A stretch of DNA of 64,000 nucleotides from Labilibacter marinus (GTDB lineage: Bacteria > Bacteroidota > Bacteroidia > Bacteroidales > Marinilabiliaceae). Location: positions 62,001 through 126,000 of the forward strand of contig NZ_LXYE02000034.1 of NCBI RefSeq assembly GCF_001659685.2, read 5' to 3'. This document shows positions 1-42,362 of the stretch, piece after piece. The notes beneath the pieces are model-generated. The model had not been told where the DNA came from. It did no database searches and worked only from the letters and a program-made list of their open reading frames with translations. Made by a program: the position numbers and the translations under genes. How positions within the stretch are numbered: the stretch's first letter is position 1; every line of letters begins with the position of its first letter.

Positions 1-1184
1 TTCATTTGATAGATTTAATTGAAGAAAAAACGAAGGTGAAATTAAGCCTTTCTACCATAAAGCGAATCTGGAAAAAGGATTATGAAGGAATTCCGCATCA
101 TTCTACTTTGGAGGTGTTTGCCCAGTTTTTAGATTACAAAAGTTGGTTAGAATTTAAGGATAAGAATAAACATATTATCCAGAATATTGAAGAAATAAGC
201 AAGGCGCAACCTAGAGATAAAACAAGGTTTAATAAACGATGGACAATTGTTTTAGGGAGTTTTATAATGGTGGGTTTTGTTTGCTGGTTATTGATGGGCT
301 CTTTTCAATCAAAAGAGGTTTTCTATCATCCCGAAGATGTTAATTTAGCTTGTAAAAACTCCGTTTCTGTTGGAGTGCCCAATACGGTTGTATTTAGTTA
401 TGAGGCAAGCAAGGTTAAAGCTGACAGTTTTTTTATTCAGCAGTCGTGGAATAAATTTAGGAGGGATAAAATACAGCCTACAGGAACACATTTAACCAGT
501 ACTTATTTTTACCCTGGTTTTCATAAAGCAAAGTTAATTGCCAACGATTCTATAATAAAACAAACTGAGGTGATGATTCAAACAGATGGTATGCTTGTTT
601 TATCCAGAGATGGTTATATGGACGAGTCGCCCATTTATATTCGTAAACCATCCATCTTTCCAGAAGGATATATCAGTGTTTCAGAAAATGATTTAAGTAA
701 TCATGGCGTTCTGGTAACGCAGGAATCGTTACTCAGTTATTTTTACGTACAGGATATTAAAGGGCTCAGTAGCCTAGAATATAGCTTTGAAACCAGGTTG
801 AAGTGCGATAGTATAATGAATTTGAATTGTCCGAATATTGATATTGTTATCAATGGAAAGGAGAATATGAACTTCTTTAGGTTAACGATGCCTGGCTGCA
901 TAGGTAAAGCCTCTATGAAAGTGGGACACCAAATGTTATCGGGTAAAAACAATGACTTGTCATTTTTGGGTGTTGATTTATACCATTGGCAGACATTTAA
1001 AATAAAGATTAAGGACGGTTTAGCTAAAGTATTTATCAATGATGTTTTACTAAAAGAACTAACAGTAAACAAAGGGATAGGTGATATAGTAGGATTTAAC
1101 CTTAACTTCTCAGGCACAGGCTCTGTTGACTTTGTTAACTTATCTAATAAGGATGGTCAAACCATTTATAAGAATAATTTCTAG
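1..1184 (+). CDS. Membrane-anchored HTH/PKD/lectin-like regulator, 5' end outside window
   Basis: The frame is open to the window edge: a CAT codon precedes the TTG at position 6. The paralogue at 41121-42362 has about 35 more residues here, so the true start lies upstream. Counting from the TTG, residues 2-25 (LIEEKTKVKLSLSTIKRIW) resemble the helix-turn-helix of the paralogue. Residues 79-99 form one membrane span preceded by basic residues, which puts the N-terminus inside. About 115-195 is a PKD-like beta domain, and about 210-392 is a concanavalin A/LamG-like domain ending in a FKIKIKDGLAKVFIND strand pattern. The architecture suggests a one-component regulator with cytoplasmic DNA binding and periplasmic glycan sensing; this function is inferred. 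The stop overlaps the stop of the convergent oxidoreductase gene by 4 bases. Confidence 0.72.
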   Translation, partial: HLIDLIEEKTKVKLSLSTIKRIWKKDYEGIPHHSTLEVFAQFLDYKSWLEFKDKNKHIIQNIEEISKAQPRDKTRFNKRWTIVLGSFIMVGFVCWLLMGSFQSKEVFYHPEDVNLACKNSVSVGVPNTVVFSYEASKVKADSFFIQQSWNKFRRDKIQPTGTHLTSTYFYPGFHKAKLIANDSIIKQTEVMIQTDGMLVLSRDGYMDESPIYIRKPSIFPEGYISVSENDLSNHGVLVTQESLLSYFYVQDIKGLSSLEYSFETRLKCDSIMNLNCPNIDIVINGKENMNFFRLTMPGCIGKASMKVGHQMLSGKNNDLSFLGVDLYHWQTFKIKIKDGLAKVFINDVLLKELTVNKGIGDIVGFNLNFSGTGSVDFVNLSNKDGQTIYKNNF

Positions 1185-1840
1185 CTTTTCTCTTTTTGTT
1201 CGTTTAATAACTCGGATAATACCCTTTTATACACATAAATAGGTTGAACTCCAGTTAAAGCGCTGGTATTATTAAAAACAACCGTAGGTACAGATGAAAC
1301 ACCCATGCCTTGCCATTTAGCCTCTTGATTTTGAATGTTTTCTTTCGCTTCTGGTTTATCCAATAAGGCCATGGCTTCATCAGTATTTAAATCAATGCTA
1401 TTTATGATTTCGCGCAATACTTCACGTTTGGAAATGTCTTTTTGTTCACTGAAAAATGCTGTAAAAAGAGCCAGTTTTAATTCAGTTTGTTGATTCGATT
1501 TTCTGGCATAATCCAATAAAATATGTGCCTCTCTTGAGTTCACTATTCTCATGCCTTCAAAATAATCAAAGTTGAAGCCTAACTCCGAGCCGTATTGGCT
1601 TAGCTGTTGTTGTACTTGTTTCACCTGTTCGGGCGAAGAACCATATTTTTGCATTATATGTTCTTGTAGATCCTGACCTGATTTTGGCATATTAGGGTTT
1701 AACTCAAAAGGCTGCCATTCAATGTCTATTTGGTCTTTTATACCCAGTTCTTGTATGGCCTTTTCAAGGCGTTTGTAACCTACAATACACCAAGGGCACA
1801 TCACATCTGACACAATATCTAGTTTTATTTTTGCTTTCAT
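1181..1840 (-). CDS. DsbA-family (FrnE-like) thiol oxidoreductase
   Basis: This is a thioredoxin-fold protein of the DsbA/FrnE group. Near the N-terminus it reads DIVSDVMCPWCIVGYKRLE, with the redox CxxC motif CPWC. It also has the helical insertion typical of the family and a late GVSSVPTVVFN segment carrying the conserved cis-proline. There is no signal peptide, so it is probably cytoplasmic. Known relatives are 2-hydroxychromene-2-carboxylate isomerase-like and polyketide FrnE-like disulfide oxidoreductases; the substrate cannot be told. The start at 1840 (MKAKIKLDIVSD) is chosen over an in-frame ATG nine codons upstream because homology begins at KIKLD. It appears unrelated to the neighbouring glycan genes. 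Confidence 0.85.
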   Translation of the reverse strand: MKAKIKLDIVSDVMCPWCIVGYKRLEKAIQELGIKDQIDIEWQPFELNPNMPKSGQDLQEHIMQKYGSSPEQVKQVQQQLSQYGSELGFNFDYFEGMRIVNSREAHILLDYARKSNQQTELKLALFTAFFSEQKDISKREVLREIINSIDLNTDEAMALLDKPEAKENIQNQEAKWQGMGVSSVPTVVFNNTSALTGVQPIYVYKRVLSELLNEQKEKS

Positions 1841-1864
1841 CTTACGCTTGTTTATATGTATATA

Positions 1865-1900
1865 CAAAAAGTGAGCGACCTTGTTCAGTGGTCGCTCACT
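1865..1900 (-). terminator. Intrinsic terminator downstream of the GH29 gene
   Basis: An 11-bp perfect stem (1870-1880 with 1890-1900, GTGAGCGACC type) has a 9-nt loop. Read on the minus strand it is followed by a T run, seen as the A run at 1866-1870 on the plus strand. It lies between the stop of the fucosidase gene and the start of the oxidoreductase gene and separates their transcripts. Confidence 0.8.
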
Positions 1901-1964
1901 ATAATATAATTACGTTTGTAATGAGTTTATAAAACTACGATTGAAATATACTTCGGTTCCTTGT

Positions 1965-3494: not shown

Positions 3495-3776
3495 TTTGTA
3501 GATTTTAATATAAGATTCTAAAGCTTTATTAGATATGAAGCTTCTTACTATTTAGTTTTATGAAAATACACTTTATTGCATTTGTAATAAGGAAATAATC
3601 ACCCTTAATAAGGGGGAAGAAGTTCTGAAGAATTTTCATTCGGGTTAATAGACTTAATAGAATGGTTAAAAGTTGGGGTAATGTGGCTGTAAACCAAAAC
3701 ATGACAAATGAGTCTGCTAAAACTTAATTGCCATGTTATATTGTTTCAATGTTTTGGAGAACTTATTCCAAATCAC

Positions 3777-5357: not shown

Positions 5358-5410
5358 AAAAAGTGGGATTTACATACTCGTAAATAGTTTTGGTATTTAC
5401 GAGTGGTCTG

Positions 5411-8986: not shown

Positions 8987-9456
8987 TTTTTTAAATATTA
9001 GCAAAACTTAAATGACTGGTACTTATTAAATGATACTCTTGTTGCATCATTATTTATGTTGGTCATCTACGTTTCATGTTTGGGATTTAGTAGATTTTAA
9101 TTTTTGTAGTTTAGGGTGGATTAGGTGCAAAGAAAATATATTTCAAATATGTTCATAATTCGTTTCAGACAAAGGTTAATAATGGATGCTAAAGTCGGGT
9201 ATAAACGGGATAGGGGGTATTTTTACTCGTGAATAAGATGGTATTGTATCACATTTAAAGTATTATTGTCAGTGCATTTAAGTAATAATAAATGGCCAGA
9301 ACGGAATGTCGGTTTCTTACCGTTTAAACTGTTTAAAATATTTTATCTTTATATGTGTAGATAGTTTGTCTCGTATTAAAAAGTCCTTATGGTAGTGAGG
9401 AGTTTTTATTAAGATGGGAGAATTATCATCACACCAATTACTGAAGAGTACTGCTT
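8987..9456. other. Divergent regulatory region between propeller gene and hybrid sensor gene
   Basis: This 470-bp gene-free stretch has to hold both divergent promoters. It contains the candidate operator at 9212-9225. It also has an imperfect direct repeat with a 23-nt offset: CATTTAAAGTATTATT from 9252 and CATTTAAGTAATAATA from 9275. No small reading frame or hairpin stands out. Confidence 0.6.
9212..9225 (-). promoter_or_regulatory. Candidate PUL operator upstream of propeller gene
   Basis: On the minus strand it reads TAAAAATACCCCCT. The same 14 bases occur upstream of susC at 13730-13743. Here it ends 226 bases before the propeller gene start; in front of susC the gap is about 230. Same orientation and near-identical distance suggest a shared binding site, most simply for the hybrid sensor encoded between them. 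Confidence 0.5.
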
Positions 9457-12400
9457 ATGAAAAAGGTATTATTTTTTGTTTTATGTTTCTGCTATAGCAT
9501 CGTAGTTTCAGCTAGTGAGTTTAGATTGTTGTCTACACTTGAAGGGTTATCTCAAAATGATGTTAACTGTATATTTCAGGATAGCAAAGGTTTTATATGG
9601 ATAGGAACCAATGATGGCTTAAATAGGTATGATGGGTACGAGTTTAAAACATTTAGACGCGAGCCTCGTGAAGAAAATGGTATAGCAGGTAATATTATTC
9701 AGGCTATCACGGAGGATTCCAATGGCGATATTTGGATAGGAACTAATGATAATGGAGTGAGTAAATTTGATTTGTCTGCTAACAAGTTTGTTACGTATGC
9801 TAATGCGCCAGGAGGTGTTAAGTTGTTGCAATCGAATCGTGTAACAAAAATAACGGCTGATGATAAAGGAAATGTTTGGGTAGTGAATGCTAAGGGTATT
9901 GATATCATTAATATTGAAACAAATGATATTTACTCAGTTTCAAAAGAAGGTCTTTATCACCGAAAGGATGAAATGCCTTTTAACTACATTAAAGATGTGT
10001 TTGTAGATAAAAGTGGCACAGTTTGGGCTGCTACTACTTATGGTTTGCGACAAATAAATCCTTACACTTACAAAATTGAAGCGAGCCTTATTGGCAAACG
10101 TGGGCACAGGGTTGTAGCCGGTATTTGTGAATTCAACGATAAGTTATATGTATATAACTCTAAGGGCGTTGGGTATTTAGATAGGGAGAGTAAAACTTTT
10201 GAGTATATATTAAATTCAGAAAGAATTAGTCAGCTTGAATTTGATTTAGAGGGTAATATTTGGGCTGGCACTTCAGATGGACTCATAGTTGTATCGCTTA
10301 AAAGAAAGTCGCCTTTGGTATATGAGGTGGAAAAAATATATAGAGATGGAATTGAACAGGGGGGCGGAATAACTTCTAACCTAATAAAGGATATTTACAG
10401 AGATAAGTCTGGTTTAATATGGGTTGGTACAACTGGAGGTGGTGTAAATATTTATAATCCTGAACACAAAAGATTTAAGCACTATAAAAAGACTAGGAAA
10501 GAAAGTAGTATATCTTATAATAAAATTAGAGCTGTACATGAAGATCAGCATGGAGGTTTATGGATAGGAACAGACGGTGGCGGCGTAAATTATTTACCTA
10601 AACAAACTAAAAAAGATTATTCGAAAGGATTTATTCATAAATATTCAAACGAAAATACCAAAGCCAGTAATGGTTATTGCATTGCTGAGGATACTTTAAA
10701 TAATCGCATTTGGGTAGGTACGGGTTACCCTATTAAAATTAAAGTGTATAGCTCTAAAACAGGAAAAGAGATTAATATTGATAAGTGGAATTTAGAAGTT
10801 ATAAAATCTGTTTTTTCTATATTGATTGATAGCGAGGGTTGTGTTTGGTTAGGGTCCTATGGAGATGGTTTATGGCGATTAAAGCCTGATGGTTCAGGCG
10901 GATACATGCAGGATAATTTTATGTTTGATAGCAAAAGTTATGCTTTGCCATCTGATTTTATCAGAAGTATTTTAGAGGATAAAAAGGGTAATATTTGGGT
11001 AGGAACAACAGAAGGCTTGGTGAAAATTAAGGCCAAGCATAAGTATCTGGATAAGCCCAAATTTTTTACCTATAAAAACATAGTTAACGACCCCAAAAGC
11101 ATAAGTCACGATTATATTCTACCGATTTTTCAAAGTCGAAATAAGGATATTTGGATAGGAACACTTGGAGGTGGCTTAAATCGTTATCGGGAAACAAAGG
11201 ATGGAATTGGTTATTTTACAACCTATACAACAAAAGACGGATTACCTAATAATGTTGTTAAAAGCATCCTTGAAGATGATAAGGGTAATTTGTGGTTAGC
11301 GACCAATAGAGGAATCACGAAATTTAATATCAAGAGTAAAGAAGTATTTAATTATGATATTAATGATGGTTTACAAGATTATGAGTTTGCTGAATTAGCG
11401 TGTGCAAAAAGAAAAAATGGCGAAATGATTTTTGGAGGAGTAAATGGTTTTAATACTTTTTTTCCAAATCAAATAGTAGAAGATAATTCAGAATCGCCTG
11501 TTGTATTTACCAAGCTTTCTATCTTAAACCAATTTGTTGAAGTGGGAGAAGAGCTACGCGGTCGGATTTTATTAGAGAATGATATTAATGATACCGAAGA
11601 GTTACATTTAAAGTATTCTGAAAATAGTTTTAGTATACACTATGTGGGACTTAATTTTATAGCGCCACAAAAAAACAAATACAAATATAAGCTAGAAGGT
11701 TTTGATGAAGAATGGATTGAGACTGCATCGGATACTCGTTTTGCCAAATACACCAATTTAAAACCGGGCACCTATAAATTAAGAGTTACTGCCTCCAATA
11801 GCGATGGGCAATGGAGTGATAAGGAGAGAGCGATAAGTGTTGTTGTGATTGCACCATGGTGGTTATCTACTTGGGCTTTGGTAGCGTATTGCCTAGTCAT
11901 TGTTATTCTTTTAATATTCTTTCGACGTTTTTCATTAATTGGTATTCAGCAAAAAAACCAACTGTTAATGGAGCGTTTTGAGAAGGAAAAGGTAGAAGAG
12001 CTTTCTCAATTAAAGCTGAAGTTCTTCACCAATGTATCGCACGAATTTCGAACTCCGTTAACCTTAATTATAGGACCAATAGAAAAACTAATACGTGAAA
12101 AGTCAGCTATGTCGGCTGAAAAGATGGCACAGGTTCATGATATTATTCATCGAAACGCTAATGTGTTGTTGCGTCTTATAAATCAGCTCATGGACTTTAG
12201 AAAGTTTGAGCAAGGTAAAATGACCATTAAGGCGGAGAAACATAATTTGGTAGAGTTTGTAAGAAACATTTATTCTTCATTTGAAATATTTGCAGAACAA
12301 AAAGGTATTGACTTTTCGATACAGTGTTTTACCGAGGATATTGAAGTTTGGATTGATACCGAAAAGATGGAGAAAATCATTTATAACCTCTTATCCAATG

Positions 12401-13623
12401 CCTTTAAATTTACACCTAGCGGTGGAAAAATAACGATTCAAGTAAAAGAAAGTGGTTCTGAAATTTTCTTTTCTGTAGAGGATTCGGGTGAAGGAATGGA
12501 TGAGGATATGAAGGCACGTGTTTTTGAGCGTTTTTACCAGGGGGATAAACTGGAGAATAAAAAATACGGAAGCACGGGTATAGGTTTGGCATATACCAAA
12601 GGTTTGGTAGAAATGCATCATGGATCAATTGATGTGGCAAGTGAGCTTAATGAGGGAACTACATTTACGGTTACATTATTAAAAGGCAATGCACATTATC
12701 AAAAGGAAGAGTTACAGTTAGAAAGCGAATATAGAAGCGTAGCAGATAGTGTATGGGTAAATTCATTGGATCCGAATGATTCAAGCACTGTGGTTGTAGA
12801 TACAGAAGATGACGTTGATAGTGACTCTCCAAAAACTATTTTAATTGTAGAGGATAATGTAGAGCTTAGAAGTTTTGTAAAAGAGAGTCTCAGCGGAATC
12901 TACAAAGTAATTGAAGCCGAAAATGGTGAAGCCGGATTAGAATTATGTAAGGAGCAGAATCCAGACATTATTGTGAGTGATGTAATGATGCCTAAAATGG
13001 ACGGCTTTGAAATGTGTAAAGCTATTAAGGATGATGTAGCTGTCAGTCATACGCCAATCATATTATTAACGGCTAAAACCTCCAGCGAACACAAAATAAA
13101 AGGATATAGTTTGGGTGCAGATGCTTATGTATCTAAACCATTTAATTTTGAAGTTTTAAAAGCACAGATAGAGAACCTGTTGGCTAAACGTGAAAACTTA
13201 AAAGGAGCTTTCCATAAAAAGGTAGATGTTTCGCCAACAGAAGTTGCTACCACCTCAATGGACGAAAAATTCCTAACTAAAATTTTATCTATTATTGAAG
13301 ATAAAATAGGCGATTCTGAGTTCACGGTGGAAGAGCTTGCATCAGAGTATGGTATTTCAAAGGTTATTTTAAATCGTAAGTTAAAAGCTTTAACAGGAAA
13401 AACCGCTAAGATATTTATACGATCCATTCGTCTTAAAAGAGCCGCTCAATTATTGTCTACGGGTAGGTATTCAGTGGCTGATGTTACCTACGAAGTTGGT
13501 TTTTCTGATTTAAAATATTTTAGAACCTGTTTTAAAACTGAGTTTTCTATTTCACCGTCAGATTTTAAAAAGCAACATTTAAATAAAGAAGACGATGAGG
13601 CAGAATCTGAAAACATTGAATAA
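9457..13623 (+). CDS. Hybrid two-component system sensor-regulator (HTCS)
   Basis: This single-chain glycan sensor and transcription activator has 1388 residues. A signal peptide (1-19) leads into a periplasmic region of about 14 two-component propeller repeats (IWIGTNDGLNRYDG-type, to about 700). A Y_Y_Y domain (about 710-790) and a membrane span (about 800-822) follow. The histidine kinase has the phospho-accepting His near 861 in NVSHEFRTPL and an ATPase domain with DSGEGMDEDM and GSTGIGLAY. The receiver has the acceptor Asp near 1174 in IIVSDVMMPKMDG, and an AraC-type DNA-binding domain ends the protein (about 1280-1380). The domain set is complete, with no missing key residue. It sits between the two operons it probably controls. 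Known relatives bind an oligosaccharide released from the PUL substrate. Confidence 0.96.
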   Translation: MKKVLFFVLCFCYSIVVSASEFRLLSTLEGLSQNDVNCIFQDSKGFIWIGTNDGLNRYDGYEFKTFRREPREENGIAGNIIQAITEDSNGDIWIGTNDNGVSKFDLSANKFVTYANAPGGVKLLQSNRVTKITADDKGNVWVVNAKGIDIINIETNDIYSVSKEGLYHRKDEMPFNYIKDVFVDKSGTVWAATTYGLRQINPYTYKIEASLIGKRGHRVVAGICEFNDKLYVYNSKGVGYLDRESKTFEYILNSERISQLEFDLEGNIWAGTSDGLIVVSLKRKSPLVYEVEKIYRDGIEQGGGITSNLIKDIYRDKSGLIWVGTTGGGVNIYNPEHKRFKHYKKTRKESSISYNKIRAVHEDQHGGLWIGTDGGGVNYLPKQTKKDYSKGFIHKYSNENTKASNGYCIAEDTLNNRIWVGTGYPIKIKVYSSKTGKEINIDKWNLEVIKSVFSILIDSEGCVWLGSYGDGLWRLKPDGSGGYMQDNFMFDSKSYALPSDFIRSILEDKKGNIWVGTTEGLVKIKAKHKYLDKPKFFTYKNIVNDPKSISHDYILPIFQSRNKDIWIGTLGGGLNRYRETKDGIGYFTTYTTKDGLPNNVVKSILEDDKGNLWLATNRGITKFNIKSKEVFNYDINDGLQDYEFAELACAKRKNGEMIFGGVNGFNTFFPNQIVEDNSESPVVFTKLSILNQFVEVGEELRGRILLENDINDTEELHLKYSENSFSIHYVGLNFIAPQKNKYKYKLEGFDEEWIETASDTRFAKYTNLKPGTYKLRVTASNSDGQWSDKERAISVVVIAPWWLSTWALVAYCLVIVILLIFFRRFSLIGIQQKNQLLMERFEKEKVEELSQLKLKFFTNVSHEFRTPLTLIIGPIEKLIREKSAMSAEKMAQVHDIIHRNANVLLRLINQLMDFRKFEQGKMTIKAEKHNLVEFVRNIYSSFEIFAEQKGIDFSIQCFTEDIEVWIDTEKMEKIIYNLLSNAFKFTPSGGKITIQVKESGSEIFFSVEDSGEGMDEDMKARVFERFYQGDKLENKKYGSTGIGLAYTKGLVEMHHGSIDVASELNEGTTFTVTLLKGNAHYQKEELQLESEYRSVADSVWVNSLDPNDSSTVVVDTEDDVDSDSPKTILIVEDNVELRSFVKESLSGIYKVIEAENGEAGLELCKEQNPDIIVSDVMMPKMDGFEMCKAIKDDVAVSHTPIILLTAKTSSEHKIKGYSLGADAYVSKPFNFEVLKAQIENLLAKRENLKGAFHKKVDVSPTEVATTSMDEKFLTKILSIIEDKIGDSEFTVEELASEYGISKVILNRKLKALTGKTAKIFIRSIRLKRAAQLLSTGRYSVADVTYEVGFSDLKYFRTCFKTEFSISPSDFKKQHLNKEDDEAESENIE

Positions 13624-26421: not shown

Positions 26422-26430
26422 TGGTTTATG

Positions 26431-28939: not shown

Positions 28940-28953
28940 AAAAATCGTGATAA

Positions 28954-32700: not shown

Positions 32701-32719
32701 TTATTATTTCCCTTATATG

Positions 32720-32757
32720 AAAAGCGCTTGTTCCGAAGGTTGGAACAAGCGCTTTTT
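32720..32757. terminator. Bidirectional terminator between convergent PUL genes
   Basis: A 15-bp perfect stem (32720-32734 with 32742-32756, AAGCGCTTGTTCC core) with a 7-nt loop and T tract. It separates the propeller gene from the end of the six-gene minus-strand operon. Confidence 0.9.
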
Positions 32758-32819
32758 TATTTATTTATAATTTTCATAATTGAGGGTGACTGAAGCGTAA
32801 TAAGCTTTCCGTTCTTCTT

Positions 32820-33896
32820 TTATTTTATCGGTATCTGAACATTAAAGGAATGTAAAACACCATCAGCATCCTTCGTATCAGATGCACAAACTAATGCCAC
32901 AGGCTTGCCATCTTCCAAATATAACTGTGGACGCTCTAAATGCTCTACTTCTTGAATACCTGTATCAGCCCAATTAATTTTTAAGGTAGATACTAAGGCG
33001 TTTTCAGCTAGGTTCCAGTCAAAACCATCTGCCGATTCAAACATAACCAAGGCTCGTCCTTTATCAGTAAATGCACCATGCATATCTTTTACAATGGCTC
33101 TATATTTCCCATCTTGGTACCAAATAAATGGATCTTCAGCAGGAAATTCATAACCTTTGGCTTCAAACACAGGTTTATCATATTTGGTAAATGGGCCTGT
33201 AGGCGATTCAGATGTTGCCACGCAGTGAACTACTGGACCTCCAGAAATTCTTTTTTTCTTTTTACCTACTGCCTTGTATACCATTAAATAACCTCCATCT
33301 GGTCGGCGAGTGACTGACGGATTACTGACCAATAAAGCATCTAAAGCGGTGGAGTCTGCACTGGCATCAACCAAAGGAGTATCAGTTCTTTGCCATGGTC
33401 CATTAGGATTGTCTGCAACAGCTACGCCAATGCGCTGGTTGTTGCGGTGTAACCAATTGTACTTTAGTTTACCAGGAGTGCAAGGGTTAATGCCATCGCC
33501 AGTATTGCCCATATAGTATAGGTAATATTTCCCATCAAACTTATGAATGGTAGGGTTGTGCGTGCATAAACCATCCCAATATTCAGCTCCGCGAGGAGGT
33601 AATGTAACATCCTTAAATTTAAAAGGACCAAACGGACTTTCTGCAACAGCATGTGCAATTTCGGAATGCGTAACCCAGGCCCAGCCTAAATCTTTTTTCC
33701 ATCTAGAATAATACATGTGGTATAAGCCATCTTCGCCTTTAACGATAGAGCCGCCCCAAATACTCATGGTATCTGATATAAACTTAGATTGAGCTGCTAC
33801 TTCGCCAAGTTCGATTTTAAATGGACCTTGCTCTTTTGGTGTATTGCAGGCTAATACTAATATTAGACTTACAGCTATTATGATATATCTTACCAT
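32820..33896 (-). CDS. GH43-like five-bladed propeller lipoprotein (copy A)
   Basis: This lipoprotein (lipobox SLILVLAC) carries the five-bladed propeller pattern of the GH43/GH117 clans: IWGGSIVKGEDGLYHMYYSRW, then IHKFDGKYYLYYMGNTGDG, VADNPNGPWQRTDTPLVD, and AEDPFIWYQDGKYRAIVKDMHG. It closely resembles the protein at 35334-36437, and the two flank a sulfatase, so the three genes look like a duplicated module. Exo-glycosidase activity is likely; the sugar is unknown. The start at 33896 (MVRYIII) is chosen because the longer frame from 33929 would overlap the sulfatase gene and precede the signal peptide. It is the last gene of the operon, five bases after the sulfatase stop. Confidence 0.82.
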   Translation of the reverse strand: MVRYIIIAVSLILVLACNTPKEQGPFKIELGEVAAQSKFISDTMSIWGGSIVKGEDGLYHMYYSRWKKDLGWAWVTHSEIAHAVAESPFGPFKFKDVTLPPRGAEYWDGLCTHNPTIHKFDGKYYLYYMGNTGDGINPCTPGKLKYNWLHRNNQRIGVAVADNPNGPWQRTDTPLVDASADSTALDALLVSNPSVTRRPDGGYLMVYKAVGKKKKRISGGPVVHCVATSESPTGPFTKYDKPVFEAKGYEFPAEDPFIWYQDGKYRAIVKDMHGAFTDKGRALVMFESADGFDWNLAENALVSTLKINWADTGIQEVEHLERPQLYLEDGKPVALVCASDTKDADGVLHSFNVQIPIK

Positions 33897-33901
33897 ATGA
33901 T

Positions 33902-35332
33902 CTATTCTTTTAAAAGTTGCTCTTCCCATTTTTCTACAATCTGTTCGTATGAGGCATCGGGAGCTAAACCTCTTTTCTTAAAGCCTTGTTTTAAAAAGTT
34001 CTGCGAACCTTCAATCCCCCTTTGAGTGGCTTCTGCAGATTCTGGTATAGCATGCTTCTCCACTTTAGCTATGGTGCTTTTAAGTTGTTTTACTAGTTTG
34101 TTTTGAATCTTTTTGTAGGCTGGATTACCCGATAAATTATTTAATTCCTCAGGGTCCTTATCTAAATTAAATAATTCAAACTCGGGTCTTGAATCCGCCA
34201 TAAACTGATTGTAGGGTGCTCCTAATTCTCCTTTCTCGTGTAAAGCATGATAGAGTGAAAAAGCAGGGTATTGCAGTTTTTTGTACGAAGTAACCTGCAT
34301 GTAAGGAAGCTCGGGCATACGGTTCCAAATTAATTTATATTGCCCATTGGTAATCGATCTAATATCATCTACTGCATCGCCACATCGTTGTCTGAAACCA
34401 TATACATACTTCAGTTTTTCTCCACCCAATACATCTTTACCATGCATGTGTTTAGGTATTTTAATATCGGCGTAAGCCAATGAACTAGTGGTTACATCCA
34501 CTAAACTTATTAAATCATCACGCTCTGTTCCGGCTTTATACTTTTCTGGGTAACGAACAATTAATGGAATAGCTAAACCTCCTTCGTATAACCATTGCTT
34601 GTCGCGTAAATGCGGACGTCCATGATCACCAAACAGGAATACAATGGTATTGTCTAATAAACCTTCCTTTTCTAATCTCTCCATGATTTGTCCCACGCGC
34701 TTATCGGCAATCTGAACAAACTCTAAATACAAGGCCCAATCCGCTCTGATAAGAGGATGGTCAGGGTAGCATTGTGGTAATGCTACTTTATCAGGATTGA
34801 TTGGTCTGTCCTCATCATGATGAAAGACACGATGAGGTTCGTGAATTTGAACCTGTGCAAAAAAAGGTTGATCTTTGGCACGTTCTTTCCAGTCTGTGCC
34901 ATCGAATAGATCAGAACCGATAAAGTTATAATCCTCTTTGCCTTTTTTATTCATGGCATGTGCCCAACCATTGGTACAAAAGTATCCTGCCTCACGGAAG
35001 ATTTCCATTACTGGAGTAACGCCTTCTGGCAAATCTTTTTTCTCCATGGTGCGATGGTTCAGGCAATTGATAGTACTTGGATACATTCCTGTAATTTGAG
35101 AGGAACGACTAGCTGAACAAACAGGAGCATTAGAATAGGCATTGTTAAATTTTACGCCATCCTTGGCCAACTGATCCATATGAGGAGTATATACATCAGG
35201 ATTACCATAACAAGCTACCTCTCTGCCTAAATCATCACAATTAATCCAAATAACATTAGGCTTTTGTTGTGCTTGCATTTGCATTAATCCTATCCACAGG
35301 AAAGCAAGCGTTATGATTGTTTTGGTTTTCAT
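33902..35332 (-). CDS. S1 family sulfatase, CSASR variant
   Basis: This exported sulfatase has 476 residues. The signal peptide ends near MQMQAQ. The formylglycine motif is VCSASRSSQITGMYP with Cys72. Ala replaces the Pro of the canonical CxPSR, a variant that occurs in some natural S1 subfamilies. Metal ligands are in NVIWINCDD and FLFGDHGRPHLRDKQW. It lies between two GH43-like paralogues in the operon, one base after the upstream gene's stop, so translation is probably coupled. It is expected to desulfate an oligosaccharide that the propeller enzymes then trim. Confidence 0.92.
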   Translation of the reverse strand: MKTKTIITLAFLWIGLMQMQAQQKPNVIWINCDDLGREVACYGNPDVYTPHMDQLAKDGVKFNNAYSNAPVCSASRSSQITGMYPSTINCLNHRTMEKKDLPEGVTPVMEIFREAGYFCTNGWAHAMNKKGKEDYNFIGSDLFDGTDWKERAKDQPFFAQVQIHEPHRVFHHDEDRPINPDKVALPQCYPDHPLIRADWALYLEFVQIADKRVGQIMERLEKEGLLDNTIVFLFGDHGRPHLRDKQWLYEGGLAIPLIVRYPEKYKAGTERDDLISLVDVTTSSLAYADIKIPKHMHGKDVLGGEKLKYVYGFRQRCGDAVDDIRSITNGQYKLIWNRMPELPYMQVTSYKKLQYPAFSLYHALHEKGELGAPYNQFMADSRPEFELFNLDKDPEELNNLSGNPAYKKIQNKLVKQLKSTIAKVEKHAIPESAEATQRGIEGSQNFLKQGFKKRGLAPDASYEQIVEKWEEQLLKE

Positions 35333-35333
35333 G

Positions 35334-36437
35334 TTAGTTATACGTTTTAGTTATTTTAAGAGGAATTTGAACATTGAAAGAATGTCTAACTTTATTTTCG
35401 TCCAAGGTGTCAGCAGCACATAGTAGTGCTACAGGCTCTCCGTTTTCCATAAAAACTTGTGGACGCTCCAAATGCGTAAACTGTTGTGTTCGGCCATCTT
35501 CCCATGTGAATATGCGCTCCGAAATTTCAAAATTCTTGGCTTTATTCCAGTTGATACCATCTTCAGAATCGTAATGAACCAAAGAGAAAAGTCTCTTTTT
35601 GCCTTCGTGGCGAATTCTTTTTACAATGGCTCTATATCTTCCTTCCTGATACCAGATATAAGGATCTTCTGCAGGGAAATGCTCACCTTCAAATGTGAAA
35701 ACTGGGTCTGGGAACTTTTTGAAAGGACCCGTTGGTGTATCGCCAATAGCCACCATATGCACTACCGGACCGTAATTAGGGGCAGGTGTTTTTTTGCCTA
35801 CCGCTTTGTAAACCATTAAAATTTTCCCATCCGTCATCAGACAAACAGAAGGGTTAGAGGTCATCGCTGCATCATATGCTAAACTATCTCCATAAGTAAT
35901 ATCAAGTACCGGTTTATCAAATCGTTTCCATGGACCATTGGGGTCATCCGCTACAGCTACACCAATACGCTGATTGTTTCTATGTACCCAGTTAATGCGG
36001 TGTTTGCCAGGAACCCCCACTATTTTACCATCGCCTGTATTACCCATATGGTATAAATAGTACTTTCCGTTGAATTTATGGACGGTAGGATTGTGGGTAC
36101 ACATACCATCCCAATATTCAGCACCACGAACGGGTAAAGCCACATCTTTAAACTCAAAAGGTCCAAAAGGTGAATTTGAAACGGCATGAGCAATCTCTGA
36201 GTGAGAAACCCAAACCCAGCCTGGAGCTTTAGGCCAACGCGAATAAAACATATGATATAGACCATCTTCACCTTTGACTAATGATCCGCCCCAATGACTT
36301 AAGCTATCACCTCCCGAAAAAACAGAAGTTTTAGATACTTTTTTAAACTCTATTTTATAATCGGGACTTGTATTAGGTTGTTGTGTACATGACATGATGC
36401 TTATAGCCATGAATAAAATAAATGCAATGTTTTTCAT
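35334..36437 (-). CDS. GH43-like five-bladed propeller lipoprotein (copy B)
   Basis: This lipoprotein of 367 residues (lipobox SIMSCTQQ) is a clear paralogue of the one at 32820-33896. It shares HWGGSLVKGEDGLYHMFYSRW, SEIAHAVSNSPFGPFEFKDV, GAEYWDGMCTHNPTVHKF and AEDPYIWYQEGRYRAIVKR. The conserved CTHNPT and AEDP blocks are the likely active-site blades. Its start overlaps the stop of the upstream GH117-like gene by one base (TAATG), a translational coupling signal. It probably acts in the periplasm on oligosaccharides imported by SusC. Confidence 0.84.
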   Translation of the reverse strand: MKNIAFILFMAISIMSCTQQPNTSPDYKIEFKKVSKTSVFSGGDSLSHWGGSLVKGEDGLYHMFYSRWPKAPGWVWVSHSEIAHAVSNSPFGPFEFKDVALPVRGAEYWDGMCTHNPTVHKFNGKYYLYHMGNTGDGKIVGVPGKHRINWVHRNNQRIGVAVADDPNGPWKRFDKPVLDITYGDSLAYDAAMTSNPSVCLMTDGKILMVYKAVGKKTPAPNYGPVVHMVAIGDTPTGPFKKFPDPVFTFEGEHFPAEDPYIWYQEGRYRAIVKRIRHEGKKRLFSLVHYDSEDGINWNKAKNFEISERIFTWEDGRTQQFTHLERPQVFMENGEPVALLCAADTLDENKVRHSFNVQIPLKITKTYN

Positions 36438-37717
36438 TAGTTCTGTTCTTTTAGATTTTTATTTTCTGATTTAATTCTGTCTAACTGTTTTTTGTTTAGG
36501 CCTTGTTTGTAGTAAATATCAATATCTTGCCATATGCCGGTTTTTTTCATATACGGGTCATCCACATCTAAACTTAAATCGCAATCGAAACGTGCCAGAA
36601 TGGAATGCTGATTTACACCATATTTACCTGCATTAATAAAATGGCAAAGTCCCCAGGTAATTCCTCTACCATCTGTTGTATTAGTAAAAGCATCCGGAAC
36701 AAAAGGGCCTGTAGCTACAGGAACCATTTCGGTAATGGAAGCTATCTCAAAATTAACCCAGTCTTTTGCATATTGAATTGTAAAATGCTCATTTCCATCC
36801 TTAGCCACTAACGCAGCCACACCTTCTTTAAAAGGAAATAATGTAACCTCATGACCTGAGTTTAAAACTGGGTTAAGCGGATGTTTTACAAATGGTCCCA
36901 TGGGGTCATCGGCAATTGCCAAACCTCCTGCTACCCACACATTGCCAGGACGATTAAAGGCCGATTTGTAATAAATATAAACTTTACCATCGTGCACCAA
37001 AGGATAAGGGTCGTGTATGGCATATTGATCCCATGCTCCTTCTTCTCCATTTTCAATTACAGCACCTTTTACCGGAATCCAAGGACCGTCTGGAGAATCT
37101 GAATAAGACATGGCTACTGGGCAGTAATCACCTGATTTACCGCTGGCTTCCATAAAGCCTTGGTAGTACAGGTAGTATTTGTTTTTAAATTTTAAGATAT
37201 CTGTAGTAGATACCGAACGCCAACCTACTTCTGGTTTTGGTGGGCGAGGGACTGCAACACCCTGTTCTTCCCATGTAAATCCATCTTCACTAGTAGCGTA
37301 CCAAATTTCGCATAAATCCCAATCGGTTGACGGAATAGTATCGTTACTTTTATGTGCATTTTTGGCACCAACAGGAATGGTAGAAGTATTACGATAAGTA
37401 TACCATACATAGTATTTTCCGTTTTCGAAGATAACTTTAGATGGGTCGCGACGTGTAATAGTGCCATCATGGTTGCTATAATCTAGACCTTTAATTTCGG
37501 TATATTTAAATTGAGAATAAAGTTCATTATCTCTAGGATGAATAGCACTGTAGTTTTTAAAACTACGTTGCATAGCAGCACTCATTTTTCGTTGCTGTGT
37601 TTCTTTGGTAATTGTATATGGAAATGAATCATCAGGTTCTGATGGCTTATTCTCACTGACTTGCGTGCATGAAATAATAAGGACTAATAAAAGCAATAGG
37701 TAGCTTAGTTTTTTCAT
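36437..37717 (-). CDS. GH117-like glycosidase lipoprotein
   Basis: This lipoprotein of 426 residues (lipobox LIISCTQ) resembles family GH117, whose known members cut the alpha-1,3 bond to 3,6-anhydro-L-galactose from neoagaro-oligosaccharides. Shared features are the N-terminal helical extension with repeated QRKMSAAMQRS, then RRDPSKVIFENGKYYVWYTYR, WDLCEIWYATSEDGFTWEEQG, VSTTDILKFKNKYYLYYQG and MSYSDSPDGPW. The assignment is from motif memory and a GH43 relative cannot be excluded. It is third in the operon, 20 bases after the esterase gene. If correct, the glycan may contain anhydrogalactose or a galactose-fucose backbone. Confidence 0.75.
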   Translation of the reverse strand: MKKLSYLLLLLVLIISCTQVSENKPSEPDDSFPYTITKETQQRKMSAAMQRSFKNYSAIHPRDNELYSQFKYTEIKGLDYSNHDGTITRRDPSKVIFENGKYYVWYTYRNTSTIPVGAKNAHKSNDTIPSTDWDLCEIWYATSEDGFTWEEQGVAVPRPPKPEVGWRSVSTTDILKFKNKYYLYYQGFMEASGKSGDYCPVAMSYSDSPDGPWIPVKGAVIENGEEGAWDQYAIHDPYPLVHDGKVYIYYKSAFNRPGNVWVAGGLAIADDPMGPFVKHPLNPVLNSGHEVTLFPFKEGVAALVAKDGNEHFTIQYAKDWVNFEIASITEMVPVATGPFVPDAFTNTTDGRGITWGLCHFINAGKYGVNQHSILARFDCDLSLDVDDPYMKKTGIWQDIDIYYKQGLNKKQLDRIKSENKNLKEQN

Positions 37718-37737
37718 ATTTAGATATTTATGGTGAT

Positions 37738-39039
37738 TTAGTTTATAGAATCGTTTATTCTAATGAGTTCTTGATACCATTCTCGGAGTGCGAGTGTGGA
37801 GGGGCGATTGTCCAGAAACATAGCAGTAGCATGGGCATTCAGGTTTGAACTAGCAAAGGTGGCTTTTACCCCAGTTTCTTTCAACATGCTTTTTAGTTCC
37901 TCCTTGTTGTTATCTGTCATAAAATAACTGCCTTTAAACTTTTGCAAGCGTTCCTTTGCTTCATTTATATTTGCTTTGCCCCAGCCATCTCCGTCGTAGT
38001 GCTGACAAGCATGTAAACCTTTCCACATAGAAGCAATAGTATCATTTCTTAAGCCGATAAAACCGCAAGCAATAGCACCTCTGGAAAAACCTGTTAGAAT
38101 AAGTCTGTCTTTATCCCCACCAAAGTTTTTAATGATTTCATTCACCGTTTCGATGGTTAAATCTGCGGTGTGATTGGGATTGCCCCAGCCATTCTCCGTA
38201 ATTTGATTGATCACATTATCCACAAAGGGCATACTCACCCAAATAGCACCATTGCCTTTGCTCATGCCATAACCGATGGTACAAGCTTCTGGTCGTCCTG
38301 TTGAATAGCAGTCTTTAGTAAACCAAATGTTGCCTGGGAATTCAACTACCACAGGATACTTTTTACCTGCTTGCCAATCCTTGGGTAAATATAAAGCCAC
38401 GTATTTTTCAGAGTCCTTAATGCTTGCTGTTTGGTATTGCACCCTTTTGCCAGCAGCAGCTTGTTCATATGTTATATCAGGTAATTCTAATTTTCCTGCG
38501 GGCATCTGCCATTGGGGTAATTTGCCTTTTTTAATAAGATTACTAACCCGAAGTTTTGAACCCACTTGAGGGTTAACCAACATCACCTGAATTTTATCGA
38601 TAAAATTGGGATTGATAAGCGGTGTACCATCTGGGAAAGTATCTCGCAAATTACATTGAAGCGTCTTAGTTTCGCCTACTTCAATTTTTTCACTTGCCGA
38701 TACAGCATCCCAGCCTTTGCCTGCTTTAATCCAAAATAATACCTCGATTGGAGATGTTCCTGTATTGGTAAATTGTGCTTCAATAAATTCAGAGGTGTTT
38801 AAATTCCAGCCTCCTTGGGGGGCAGGTATCGTGCACCATGTATTTCTCGCTTTAGCGGATGAAGTGATATACAGCGTTTTATTCTCGGTACTTTGTTGCA
38901 TCTCGGCCTTCATGCCCCTTGAATCAGCTAAAACACGTCCTACGTTTATATGATGCCATAACTCTTCCTCTGTTGTTTTAGTCTGACATCCCGTAAGGAT
39001 AATTAGGCAAATGGGTATATATAAAATATACTTGAACAT
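37738..39039 (-). CDS. Alpha/beta-hydrolase (carbohydrate esterase-like) lipoprotein
   Basis: This lipoprotein of 433 residues (lipobox LIILTGCQ) has an N-terminal beta-sandwich, possibly glycan binding (about 25-170), and a C-terminal alpha/beta-hydrolase. The nucleophile elbow is LTGFSRGAIACG (GxSxG). A plausible catalytic His is in SNLNAHATAMF, where lipases and esterases place it. The layout resembles PHB-depolymerase/acetyl-xylan-esterase relatives. In this operon a role in removing acetyl, methyl or other ester groups from the glycan is likely but inferred. It is second in the operon, 60 bases after the oxidoreductase gene. Confidence 0.75.
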   Translation of the reverse strand: MFKYILYIPICLIILTGCQTKTTEEELWHHINVGRVLADSRGMKAEMQQSTENKTLYITSSAKARNTWCTIPAPQGGWNLNTSEFIEAQFTNTGTSPIEVLFWIKAGKGWDAVSASEKIEVGETKTLQCNLRDTFPDGTPLINPNFIDKIQVMLVNPQVGSKLRVSNLIKKGKLPQWQMPAGKLELPDITYEQAAAGKRVQYQTASIKDSEKYVALYLPKDWQAGKKYPVVVEFPGNIWFTKDCYSTGRPEACTIGYGMSKGNGAIWVSMPFVDNVINQITENGWGNPNHTADLTIETVNEIIKNFGGDKDRLILTGFSRGAIACGFIGLRNDTIASMWKGLHACQHYDGDGWGKANINEAKERLQKFKGSYFMTDNNKEELKSMLKETGVKATFASSNLNAHATAMFLDNRPSTLALREWYQELIRINDSIN

Positions 39040-39099
39040 AGATTATTTTTGATGGATTTAGTATTTAAGTTAAGCTGCTAATAAAGTTAACTTTAAAGG

Positions 39100-40938
39100 T
39101 TAATTTCCATTCAATATATCTTTCAATTCTTCCAAATGTTTTTCGTAAACACCTCTTGGGTCTGTGTTGTGCTGAATGGCCAAGCTTGCTGCATAACCTA
39201 CCACTTCGCCCATTAAACCAGTTGTTCGCATTACACGAGTAGATCCGAAACCAACGTGGGTAGTACTAATATTTCTACCCGCCATAAAAAGGTTGTTGAT
39301 ATTACGAGAATACAAACAACGGTAGGGCACATGAGCAGGTTTTGCTCTTTTATGTACTGCTTTAGATAAAAAGGCATTTTCGTTAAAGTGTTTACTGTTT
39401 TCGTCTTGTGGGTAATGCAAATCGATGGACCAAGTGGTTGGTATAAAAGCATCCTTCTGTCTAGGGTTGGTATGATTTCGATCCATCTCGCTAAAAATAT
39501 AATCACCCATTAATCTTCTCGATTCGCGTTTTCCGCCAATATAGCCTACCCAGTCTAACTTATAATGACTGTATTTATCTTTTAAATTATTTTTTAAATA
39601 CGACCAGTTACCATATACCGCTCTGAAGTTGTGGTCACGTATTTCTTCCGCTTGACTCAGTGCATCAAAATTATTAAAACCCGTTTCCCAAAACCATTCT
39701 GATGTAGCTCCATCTAAAAAGTATTCATCTGTAAATTGCAGTGCCCAAGGTGTTTTTGGAAATGTAGAGGCCTCTTCAAATTTGGATGCATGCCACATAT
39801 TTGAGGTTCCTAAACAAAATGTATCTGCTGTATCGCGAGCCAACGATTCTCCCGTTTTAGCTTTACTTTCTCTTCCATATCTATAATCAGCTCCCGCCGC
39901 ATACCCTATGGTTCCATCTCCAGTGCAGTCCACAAAAAAACGACCTTCAAAACGTAATTCTTCATTGGTAGATATATGACGAGCAATAACTGCTTTTATC
40001 TTTTGCTCATCCATCTCTACATCATAGGCATGCATATTTAAAAACAGATCTATATTTTTTTCAAAATTAACCACACTTTCCTTACGCTTGTCTCCGTATT
40101 TTTTTCCGTCTATGTTAGCGTTGTGTGGATCTCCATTATCCAACTCGCGAACAATTCTACCCAAAGCAGCATAATCATTCTCACGGTCGATAAAACCCAT
40201 CAGGTGCACTCTTATCTCTGAACTATTATTACCGCCTAATACCGGTCGGTTTTGTATAAGGGCTACTTTTAATCCGCTTCGTGATGCTGTTATAGCCGAG
40301 CAAAGTCCTGCCATACCACCACCAATAACAACTAAATCGTATTTGCCCTTAGTTTCAGGATTATTGTTTAAACCCAATAGTTTTTTTCTCCAAGGGTTCA
40401 TTGTTTCCAAATCATTTGGCGGAACATCTTTTTTACTACTGGTAAAATAAATGGCATCACACCTTCCTGCAAAACCACTTAAATCGTTTAAGCTGATAGA
40501 AACCTTTTCAGGCTCATCAATTTGAATGGTACCTCCACTATACCATTGCCAGCCTGTTTTGCCACTGGCGCCAAAAGTGTTTTTATAGTTACTTCCAATT
40601 TTTAGTTCAAATTCTCCTGGGCCAACAGGGAATGGAGCCCAATCTTTGGTTCGTACCCAAATATGATATTTACCTTTGGCAGGAAAACTGACTTGAGTTT
40701 TGGCCTCTTTTACTATTTCGCCCATACCGTGAGCTAGTAAGTAAGAAGAGCCCATAATATCAAAATATTGTTGATCTACTTTCCAACCACCTTTATTACT
40801 GAAAGATTCAGCTTCTACTAAAAGCTTTTTTTGTGCATTAAGTGATGGGGAGAATAATATCATCACTACAATTAATAAAGGTAATATAAATGGAATGATT
40901 TGAGATGATTGTCTTAGGTGTACAAGATGATTTTTCAT
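39100..40938 (-). CDS. Exported FAD-dependent oxidoreductase with N-terminal beta domain
   Basis: This protein of 612 residues is first in the operon. A long signal sequence (membrane stretch IIPFILPLLIVVMILFSP, cleavage near LNAQ) is followed by a jelly-roll-like domain (about 37-175, LLVEAESFSNKGGWKV). A PF12831-type FAD oxidoreductase comes next: the Rossmann motif VVIGGGMAGLCSAIT near 205, then GGNNSSEIRVHLMG, FFVDCTGDGTIGYAAGADY, and the terminal NIFMAGRN-like block (NNLFMAGRNISTTHVGFGS). Such proteins recur in Bacteroidota and Planctomycetota glycan loci; an oxidation of a sugar is possible but no substrate is established. Export of a flavoprotein is unusual. Confidence 0.85.
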   Translation of the reverse strand: MKNHLVHLRQSSQIIPFILPLLIVVMILFSPSLNAQKKLLVEAESFSNKGGWKVDQQYFDIMGSSYLLAHGMGEIVKEAKTQVSFPAKGKYHIWVRTKDWAPFPVGPGEFELKIGSNYKNTFGASGKTGWQWYSGGTIQIDEPEKVSISLNDLSGFAGRCDAIYFTSSKKDVPPNDLETMNPWRKKLLGLNNNPETKGKYDLVVIGGGMAGLCSAITASRSGLKVALIQNRPVLGGNNSSEIRVHLMGFIDRENDYAALGRIVRELDNGDPHNANIDGKKYGDKRKESVVNFEKNIDLFLNMHAYDVEMDEQKIKAVIARHISTNEELRFEGRFFVDCTGDGTIGYAAGADYRYGRESKAKTGESLARDTADTFCLGTSNMWHASKFEEASTFPKTPWALQFTDEYFLDGATSEWFWETGFNNFDALSQAEEIRDHNFRAVYGNWSYLKNNLKDKYSHYKLDWVGYIGGKRESRRLMGDYIFSEMDRNHTNPRQKDAFIPTTWSIDLHYPQDENSKHFNENAFLSKAVHKRAKPAHVPYRCLYSRNINNLFMAGRNISTTHVGFGSTRVMRTTGLMGEVVGYAASLAIQHNTDPRGVYEKHLEELKDILNGN

Positions 40939-41120
40939 GATAGATAAAATTGTAGATTATTGTTTCTTGCTTACTTGTATAAAGCTATTGAATGGTTTGA
41001 TTTCTATTTTAAAATTATGGAATAATGAGAAAATATCTCCATCTTAGCCTGTTCAATACTAAATCAAATAAATGAACAACTTAACTTGCAGATTAAGTGA
41101 GGTTTGTGTTTGGCTGAAAA

Positions 41121-42362
41121 ATGGATATTAATAAAAAGAACAAGGCATTTCAAGAACAAATATTAAGGCAAACAGAGAAAAAGTTTGGTAGGGGAAAAAG
41201 GCATGTTTGGAAGAATCGAGATTTTGAAGATTTAAGTCATGCAATCCATATTAAAACAAAAGTGCTAATTAGTGTAGCTACTTTAAAACGTTTATTTGGT
41301 AAGGTTAAAACCCCTGATGATTATTCTCCGCAGCAAAGTACATTAGATGCATTAATCAATTATACAGGGTATGACCCTAATACCTCAAAAAATAAAAGCA
41401 GTAATAAAAAGCTACTTGTTATTATATTAGGAGTAATTGTATTGATGTTTACCATAGCGGCATTGACTTTGTATTTTGTAGCTAAACCATTTGTAAATAA
41501 ATCGGAACAGGTTACGTTAAAAGGTAAACTGTCATTGATAAAAACGGAGGGCACTTGTCCTACAACTGCATATTTTAATTTGGAATTGCCACAAACAAGA
41601 GATAGCATCTTTGTAAATTTTGGGGATTTGTCGCCCTTGAAAACGGTAAATGGACTTGAAACTATTTCGCATTTTTATGCTTTCCCTGGACAATTTGTGG
41701 CACGATTACGAACAAAAAATCAAGCTTTAGCGCGTTCTAATAAAATATTAGTGCCGACGAATGGTTGGCAGTCCTTCGCGTATTATTTCGACAAAGACAA
41801 TAGAGAAAGATATTATCCAATTCCAATGGAAAAGGGTATAAAGGATGGTGTTTTTCATGTAGAACCACGTACTATTGCTTCAATAGGTATTGATACTACC
41901 CAAATTGTATCTGTACGAGTAGATAATTACCAAAGAACCGATATAAACGGAGATTCATTTGATTATTTCGCTAGGATAAAAAGTAGCTTGTTTTGGCCAG
42001 CTATACGATGTTATTCCACTTTTATTACCATTGAGGGAGCATTGGGTAAGGTACAGTTTAAATTTATGACCGAAGGTTGTAGTACTTATGGCTCATACAT
42101 TCTTAGCGAGATTAAAAAAAGTGGTTCGGATAGCGATCTGAGTAATTTTATAGTTGGACGAAACCAATGGTTGGATGTTCGAATAAAAAACGAAGATAAA
42201 AATGTTCAGGTTTTGGTAAACGATGAGGAGGTTTTTGTAGGAAATTACAATAAGTCTATTGGTGATATTATTGGAACAACCATTGAATTTCATGGAAGTG
42301 GCTTTGTTGATAAGGTAAAGTTAAGTGCAGGAGAAGAGTGTATTTTCGAAGGCGATTTTTAA
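41121..42362 (+). CDS. Membrane-anchored HTH/PKD/lectin-like regulator (full length)
   Basis: This paralogue of the protein at 1-1184 is complete, with 413 residues. Residues 35-62 (IHIKTKVLISVATLKRLFG) look like a helix-turn-helix and lie in the cytoplasm. A basic stretch precedes one membrane span (98-120). A PKD-like domain (about 137-212, DSIFVNFGD to FYAFPGQFVARLRT) and a concanavalin A/LamG-like domain (about 225-413) would face the periplasm. The layout mirrors ToxR/CadC-type one-component regulators, here with a glycan-binding-type sensor. It diverges from the six-gene PUL operon and shares the 182-bp gap with it, so it is a good candidate for its control. Function is inferred. Confidence 0.8.
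   Translation: MDINKKNKAFQEQILRQTEKKFGRGKRHVWKNRDFEDLSHAIHIKTKVLISVATLKRLFGKVKTPDDYSPQQSTLDALINYTGYDPNTSKNKSSNKKLLVIILGVIVLMFTIAALTLYFVAKPFVNKSEQVTLKGKLSLIKTEGTCPTTAYFNLELPQTRDSIFVNFGDLSPLKTVNGLETISHFYAFPGQFVARLRTKNQALARSNKILVPTNGWQSFAYYFDKDNRERYYPIPMEKGIKDGVFHVEPRTIASIGIDTTQIVSVRVDNYQRTDINGDSFDYFARIKSSLFWPAIRCYSTFITIEGALGKVQFKFMTEGCSTYGSYILSEIKKSGSDSDLSNFIVGRNQWLDVRIKNEDKNVQVLVNDEEVFVGNYNKSIGDIIGTTIEFHGSGFVDKVKLSAGEECIFEGDF

Follow-up and report, generated by a model that had tools for sequence, protein, structure and literature searches.

Putative lectin-headed, membrane-anchored transcription regulators facing glycan gene clusters in Labilibacter marinus and other Bacteroidota

Regulators of polysaccharide utilization loci (PULs) tell which glycan a gene cluster answers to. 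Several described systems come close to P1 and P2, two related proteins encoded in a window of 64,000 nucleotides of Labilibacter marinus (bases 62001-126000 of the 232,565-base contig NZ_LXYE02000034.1; genome 6.03 Mb). RodZ has an N-terminal XRE-like helix-turn-helix (HTH), one membrane helix and a periplasmic domain, and it contacts MreB; it is not known to be tied to glycan operons. At the sites of ToxR and TcpP, repeats stand in tandem with a spacing of about 11 bp. SusR of Bacteroides is described as an activator of the sus operons that lies in the membrane, senses in the periplasm and contacts DNA through a cytoplasmic domain, and its predicted sites as direct repeats (PMC3878776). TfoS, a membrane regulator in Vibrio, is described as needing chitin oligosaccharides (PMC11856585), and ToxR and TcpP as carrying a winged HTH (PMC6733452). 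We propose, with a probability of about 0.7, that P1 and P2 each control the operon facing them as one-component transcription regulators anchored in the membrane, acting through a triple direct-repeat site and carrying a glycan-sensing head.

The predicted order of a putative N-terminal XRE-like HTH, one membrane helix and a periplasmic domain is shared with RodZ. ToxR, TcpP, CadC and TfoS also act while anchored in the membrane, and the cooperative action on repeats proposed below resembles the way of ToxR and TcpP. However, these two are described with a winged HTH (PMC6733452), whereas the P1/P2 family would combine an XRE-like HTH with a lectin-like head, and it belongs to another phylum. 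SusR, as described in PMC3878776, is similar in its membrane anchoring, periplasmic sensor, cytoplasmic DNA-binding domain and direct-repeat sites. The same description sets it apart, in that its DNA-binding domain is C-terminal, whereas the candidate domain of P2 is N-terminal and P2 has no C-terminal one, and its sites have a long spacer, in contrast to 10-12 bp in the P1/P2 family; the head of the family, moreover, consists of PKD and ConA-like units. The family differs from SusR and TfoS in domain order and parts. The initial annotation had suggested here a third type of PUL control besides hybrid sensors and anti-sigma systems, which goes too far, since SusR as described is already a membrane one-component regulator (PMC3878776). 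Hybrid two-component systems (HTCSs) are likewise single-protein PUL sensor-regulators of Bacteroidota, but Pfam matched no kinase, receiver or AraC domain in P1 or P2. In the open-access literature, judged by titles and the starts of abstracts (subscription papers and preprints lay outside this scope), the P1/P2 architecture was not found described. A family whose operator is predicted and whose members stand next to SusC-like, sulfatase and glycosidase genes in several orders would aid in linking regulators to clusters that have neither an HTCS nor a sigma/anti-sigma pair, and could serve as a compact system for studying how proteins tethered to the membrane locate DNA.

P2 is a complete open reading frame (ORF) of 413 aa, as initially annotated. 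Of P1, annotated as a partial frame, the window includes only the 3' part; the whole gene (L009:9901-11184) codes for 427 aa, and its start codon lies 100 bases before the window start (Table 1). The two proteins align end to end with 26% identity over 416 columns (E 4e-23) and are the only full-length copies in their genome in a search up to E 10. Pfam and NCBIfam scans of both proteins (P1 without its first 34 residues) gave nothing above cut-off, and the family is uncatalogued, i.e., unnamed in the copies of these databases used. A scan of GTDB genome contigs yielded homologues with the same domain order at 50 loci, in Marinilabiliales, Cytophagales, Chitinophagales, Sphingobacteriales and others, and relatives occur across Bacteroidota; 31 of 395 sampled genomes of the phylum had matches, many of them partial or single-domain.

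The annotated order of an HTH-like segment, one membrane span, a PKD-like domain and a ConA/LamG-like domain was recovered in an AlphaFold2 model of P2 and, for P1, by the end-to-end alignment. The model was built for P2 only, from an alignment with 47 relatives (48 sequences), and had a predicted local distance difference test score (pLDDT) of 92.4 and a predicted template modelling score of 0.69. It contains helices at residues 2-22, 32-46, 52-58 and 72-82, a further helix corresponding to the membrane helix, PKD-like strands, and a beta sandwich from about residue 231 to 412. Cys297 and Cys320 of the head are invariant across the 48-row alignment, as are W30, P70 and W216. At E ≤ 0.01, the 48 family members matched the Pfam families 3keto-disac_hyd (6 members), PKD (5), PKD_4 (4) and Laminin_G_3 (1). 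The first of these is the 3-keto-disaccharide hydrolase family (PF06439), from which the head of the P1/P2 family differs in being membrane-tethered and probably not catalytic. A Foldseek search of the PDB with the full P2 model gave 129 matches at E ≤ 0.001. The best 50 of these were largely proteins with ConA-like units (residue ranges are absent from the output), with sialidase, laminin-G, AbnA and similar entries first and Emp47p, galectins and alginate lyases lower. Template modelling scores over the whole chain were low (0.16-0.30), as expected where one domain among several matches. In addition, the head profile matched 3imm, a putative secreted glycosylhydrolase (E 0.016). The modelled strands and the Foldseek matches together make the beta sandwich well supported, and the C-terminal part of P2 is predicted to be a ConA-like lectin/LamG domain, in line with the initial annotation. 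Hydropathy gave one membrane segment in 40 of 51 relatives, and the orientation followed the positive-inside rule in 36 of the 48 that have a membrane segment. A DNA-binding-type domain, a membrane helix and an extracytoplasmic domain are thus predicted in one chain, which would be seated in the inner membrane. Two further relatives, L035 and L036 (genomes G350 and G220), have a PKD-ConA head with a shorter or different N-terminal part (ORFs of 325 and 556 aa); perhaps other outputs are attached there to the same sensor.

In the N-terminal domain, residues S51, T54, L55, K56, R57, F59, G60 and K61 of the helix are invariant in the 48-row alignment, which excludes P1. The helix of P1 reads S-L-S-TIKR-IWKK, some distant members (L020) deviate too, and the two positions preceding TLKR vary among members. 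AlphaFold2 modelling of the N-terminal 98 residues alone gave a pLDDT of 82.1. Comparison of this model with HTH folds in the PDB returned a TP901-1 CI repressor domain as the best of 28 matches, although at E values of only 1.9 and 2.0; 12 of the 28 were TP901-1 CI (2) or C.Esp1396I/Oct4/POU (10), and the remainder were unrelated. HTH_3 matched the N-terminal part of 3 of 49 members (best E 0.002). The initial annotation had proposed that this part binds DNA, and the proposal is helped indirectly, by the weak lambda-repressor-like resemblance and more strongly by a promoter site shared within the family.

Of the 48 loci that show a gene on the 5' side of the regulator, 43 have this neighbour in divergent orientation, compared with 156 of 536 other genes there (Fisher p 9e-17); the same holds for 15 of 16 further regions compared with 14 of 83 other genes (p 5e-9), where one region (L156) repeats L104 and another rests on a doubtful ORF. 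At 1e-5, the first divergent genes matched the TonB plug (SusC-like) in 13 of 43 cases, 3keto-disac_hyd in 6 and FAD_oxidored in 5. Of 34 second divergent genes, 10 were SusD. Homologues are thus associated with glycan loci, a point that had been set beforehand as a test of the initial annotation. BLAST clustering of the first divergent genes together with the two targets near or in the window gave 15 3-keto-like genes (including the target of P1), 13 SusC-like genes and 6 FAD oxidoreductase genes (including the target of P2), the remaining clusters having sizes of 3, 3 and 2, plus three singletons. For example, the regulator is divergent from susC-susD in Spirosoma and from an alpha-N-acetylglucosaminidase gene in Persicobacter. 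Among 13 held-out first divergent genes, 3keto-disac_hyd occurred twice, and FAD_oxidored, a sulfatase, GH43, raffinose synthase, an alpha/beta hydrolase and others once each. The 47 3' neighbours were a mixture of 59 families, and TonB plug was not found among the 25 of these families listed; sulfatases, GH43, SusD-like and other glycan genes occurred on this side too, and the surroundings of the regulator are therefore glycan-rich in general. Neighbours were called with a simple ORF script, so single assignments may err; those of L067, L085, L093, L096, L103 and L155 are doubtful. Genes related to the FAD_oxidored gene opposite P2 also face the regulator in L142 and in five relatives from the 50-locus scan.

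Three tandem copies of a half-site with the consensus TGTTCAA, 10-12 bp apart, are found in many divergent promoters of the family. A blind expectation-maximisation search (width 14) was applied to 30 of 47 promoters; 11 had been dropped by hand as near-copies and 6 because the gene start was uncertain or the gap long. It scored 96.4-97.0. With the number of starts kept equal, 12 dinucleotide-shuffled sets scored 50.3-64.0, and six control sets, each made of 30 other divergent promoters of these loci, scored 52.1-65.5. Three TTCAA-like words with spacings of 11 and 12 bp occur in most of the clade of P2, whose counterparts in Sphingobacteriaceae and Dyadobacter are spaced 12 and 12 bp and in Runella, Algoriphagus and others 11 and 11 bp. 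Three members whose helix reads S-D-S-TLKR have GGTCA/GGCCA three times at 10-11 bp. A three-half-site model, whose form was derived by inspecting the training promoters (TTCAA-like words about 11 bp apart), found sites in 25 of the 30 promoters of its own training set, a circular figure and no proof; for held-out regulators it found sites in 4 of 13 upstream and 2 of 13 downstream regions. The pooled score of 14 held-out divergent promoters was 104.1 against a null of 37.8 (standard deviation 9.2; maximum of 1000 nulls 66.1), while the opposite strand gave 58.1 against 46.6 (standard deviation 9.4). Two new promoters in this set (L152, L153) had been inspected by eye before the test, and L156, the repeat of L104, was excluded. 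The triple direct-repeat site is a property of many of these promoters. Its simplest reading suggests that the regulator binds it, helped by the clade in which helix and site differ together, although this co-variation is only suggestive because it is a single event in one clade. The 182-bp gap between P2 and its divergent cluster (40939-41120), annotated initially together with the six genes beyond it, is present, and the operator candidate lies 40 to 71 bp upstream of the P2 start codon and about 111 bp from that of the target. Genome-wide, the pattern of the P2 site gave its own site and 32 others at 2-3 mismatches, 33 in total compared with 26 for the reversed control, and therefore no further P2 target is indicated. 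By eye, the promoters of L146-L150, one family from five genomes with the helix S-I-S, have 11-bp repeats of the CGTTCATTTAC type; one of the five promoters was significant with the general model.

Several results weigh against the proposal. The thinned set of 30 promoters retains orthologues, which have no counterpart in the shuffled sets and control promoters, so the margin of the blind motif overstates independence. Only 6 of the 14 held-out promoters reached p ≤ 0.05 individually, 12 of the 14 come from regulators to which this model had been applied before, and of 54 control promoters, 1 reached the same level on one strand and 6 did so on the opposite strand. The promoter of P1 itself was not significant (p 0.075), a simple 14-bp matrix found 1 of 13 held-out regions, and an assumption-free test for tandem repeats gave 7 of 45 promoters at p ≤ 0.05 and 4 of 45 at p ≤ 0.01. 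In members without a divergent neighbour the site was mostly not found upstream (3 of 9 non-divergent or uncertain loci have it). None of the 28 PDB matches of the N-terminal domain fell below E 0.001, so that, judged by fold alone, a lambda-repressor/XRE-type HTH is no more than plausible; when PDB sequences were searched with a profile of this domain, no HTH match emerged, and HTH_3 was no commoner than the unrelated models RRM_9 (6) and Skp1 (5). Hydropathy gave no membrane segment in 3 of the 51 relatives and two in 8. Sugar binding by the head is putative, and a histidine kinase gene directly follows P2.

We infer that the protein binds the site, that its ligand is a glycan and that the effect is activation. 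The cytoplasmic HTH-like domain would bind the three TGTTCAA half-sites in the divergent intergenic region, and one membrane helix would join it to a periplasmic PKD spacer and the ConA/LamG-like head, which most likely binds an oligosaccharide set free by the enzymes of the cluster. Ligand binding may change the oligomeric state and with it the occupancy of the triple site, by which the divergent catabolic operon would be activated and the regulator's own transcription adjusted. Half-sites about one helical turn apart would place three HTH domains on the same face of the DNA, and ligand-driven clustering of the membrane-tethered protein could fill them cooperatively. The position of the site relative to both start codons would suit activation of the target as well as autoregulation.

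The same operator might be bound by a protein whose head senses not a glycan but a surface protein, envelope stress or a SusCD-associated lipoprotein, the linkage to glycans then following from captured operons. The ConA fold serves protein contacts too, the clade of L082, L086 and L100 faces a DoxX-type gene rather than an evident glycan gene, and 8 of the 43 first targets have no evident glycan role in our grouping. However, 35 of the 43 are glycan-related in the same grouping (13 SusC-like, 14 3-keto-like, 5 FAD_oxidored, 2 GH43-like and 1 sulfatase), where the FAD_oxidored and most 3-keto-like targets are counted by association or clustering only, and carbohydrate-binding or carbohydrate-active entries lead the best 50 of the 129 Foldseek matches. 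We regard a non-glycan ligand as unlikely, though a serious contender. It is distinctly improbable that the N-terminal domain serves to contact another protein, as that of RodZ does, and that an unrelated regulator binds the repeats. The weak fold match to DNA-binding domains would fit this explanation, as would the nearly constant helix motif in the face of differing targets and the presence of related segments on STAND NTPase-like proteins (by eye), in which DNA binding is not obvious. It accords poorly with the divergent placement of the regulators, with a triple site that is enriched in these promoters but not in the remaining divergent promoters of the loci, with the variation at the two helix positions before TLKR, and with the shift of half-site wording with the helix in one clade, a single event.

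The kinase gene downstream of P2, which codes for HisKA and HATPase_c domains, raises the question of whether a two-component system operates here, with this kinase as the true sensor partner and P2 in an accessory role. A close relative of the kinase (54%) adjoins the regulator in 1 of 68 loci, L141, from the same genus and in the same position, and in L066 the gene after the regulator is a distant match (23% over 232 aa). The other 66 loci have no adjoining kinase match, although five have matches elsewhere in the stretch. Being adjacent in so few loci, the kinase is not a general partner, a two-component partner for the family was rejected, and such a role beside P2 is highly improbable. 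The initial annotation had spoken of control without a kinase, which holds for the domains of P1 and P2 but overlooks this gene.

In a tree of 51 rows, from which the partial or broken proteins L069, L085 and L103 were excluded, P1 groups with regulators opposite secreted 3-keto-disaccharide-hydrolase-like genes (a clade of 16 rows, support 100/99). The clade of P2 has 8 rows (98/97), of which 6 face FAD-oxidoreductase genes and 2 GH43-like genes. The type of the first target changes 7 times on the tree, compared with 22.7 in shuffles. Since P1 and P2 fall in distinct clades, they represent old, separate subfamilies. They had been annotated as paralogues bracketing one PUL, and by position they do sit at both of its ends, but the divergent partner of P1 lies outside the window, facing away from the PUL. 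A bracketing duplicate pair was rejected, as the clades differ and the divergent partners face different ways; each protein faces a different operon, and the intervening PUL includes an HTCS of its own. In the clade of P1, the head matched the divergent 3-keto-like target over 61 columns in a profile comparison (probability 82.5, E 9.9e-6), suggesting that sensor head and target may be distantly related. The broader view is that of lectin-headed membrane transcription factors across Bacteroidota that read glycans directly in the periplasm and use a triple operator, with half-site and recognition helix having changed together and the head being kin to a secreted enzyme-like target in some; we see its chances as evenly balanced.

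Table 1. Positions of P1, P2, predicted domains of P2, the candidate operator and neighbouring genes in the 64,000-nucleotide window
Feature	Position	Strand	Basis or remark
P1 (paralogue 1)	1..1184	+	3' part of 427-aa HTH-membrane helix-PKD-ConA-like protein; 3-keto-facing clade in tree
P2 (paralogue 2), full 413-aa putative regulator	41121..42362	+	ORF, AlphaFold2, tree
P2 residues 1-90, HTH-like domain, helix motif S-x-x-TLKR-x-FGK	41121..41390	+	Alignment, AlphaFold2, Foldseek
P2 residues 94-125, predicted membrane helix	41400..41495	+	AlphaFold2, hydropathy
P2 residues 136-222, PKD-like unit, predicted periplasmic	41526..41786	+	Profile/Pfam matches, AlphaFold2
P2 residues 226-413, ConA/LamG-like domain with Cys297 and Cys320	41796..42359	+	Alignment, Pfam matches, AlphaFold2, Foldseek
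Putative operator of three half-sites, with spacings of 11 and 12 bp	41050..41080	+	Pattern search, three-half-site model
Divergent six-gene cluster, likely P2 target	32820..40938	-	ORF list, Pfam
HTCS, likely regulator of central susC/susD cluster, outside P1/P2 family	9457..13623	+	Pfam domains
Membrane histidine kinase gene (HisKA, HATPase_c), directly downstream of P2	42403..43755	+	Pfam

P1 faces a gene for a 237-aa 3keto-disac_hyd protein (E 1.4e-9), with a PD40-repeat gene beyond it; other genes beyond the target read as sulfatases by eye. The six genes facing P2 code, in reading order, for a FAD_oxidored protein with an N-terminal extension, a protein unmatched in Pfam, two GH43-like proteins that miss Pfam's cut-off, a sulfatase and a GH43 protein; susC and susD are absent among them. 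Genes for a DsbA-like protein, a fucosidase, a sulfatase, an HTCS, SusC and SusD lie between P1 and this cluster. The HTCS has HisKA, HATPase_c, receiver and AraC-type domains, and it is the likely regulator of the central susC/susD cluster in which it stands. On either side of the central susC/susD genes lies a large protein (5411-9004 and 29647-32700) in which Sortilin/BNR-type repeats are combined with a Por secretion tail.

A profile search of 9 genomes with the N-terminal domain gave 8 matches, in 5 genomes. In L022, L023, L039 and L040, a similar N-terminal segment, TLKR-(F/I)-(F/Y), heads large proteins of other Bacteroidota, which by eye resemble STAND/NACHT-type NTPases. The segment common to the regulators and these STAND/NACHT-like proteins is possibly a shared, uncatalogued domain.

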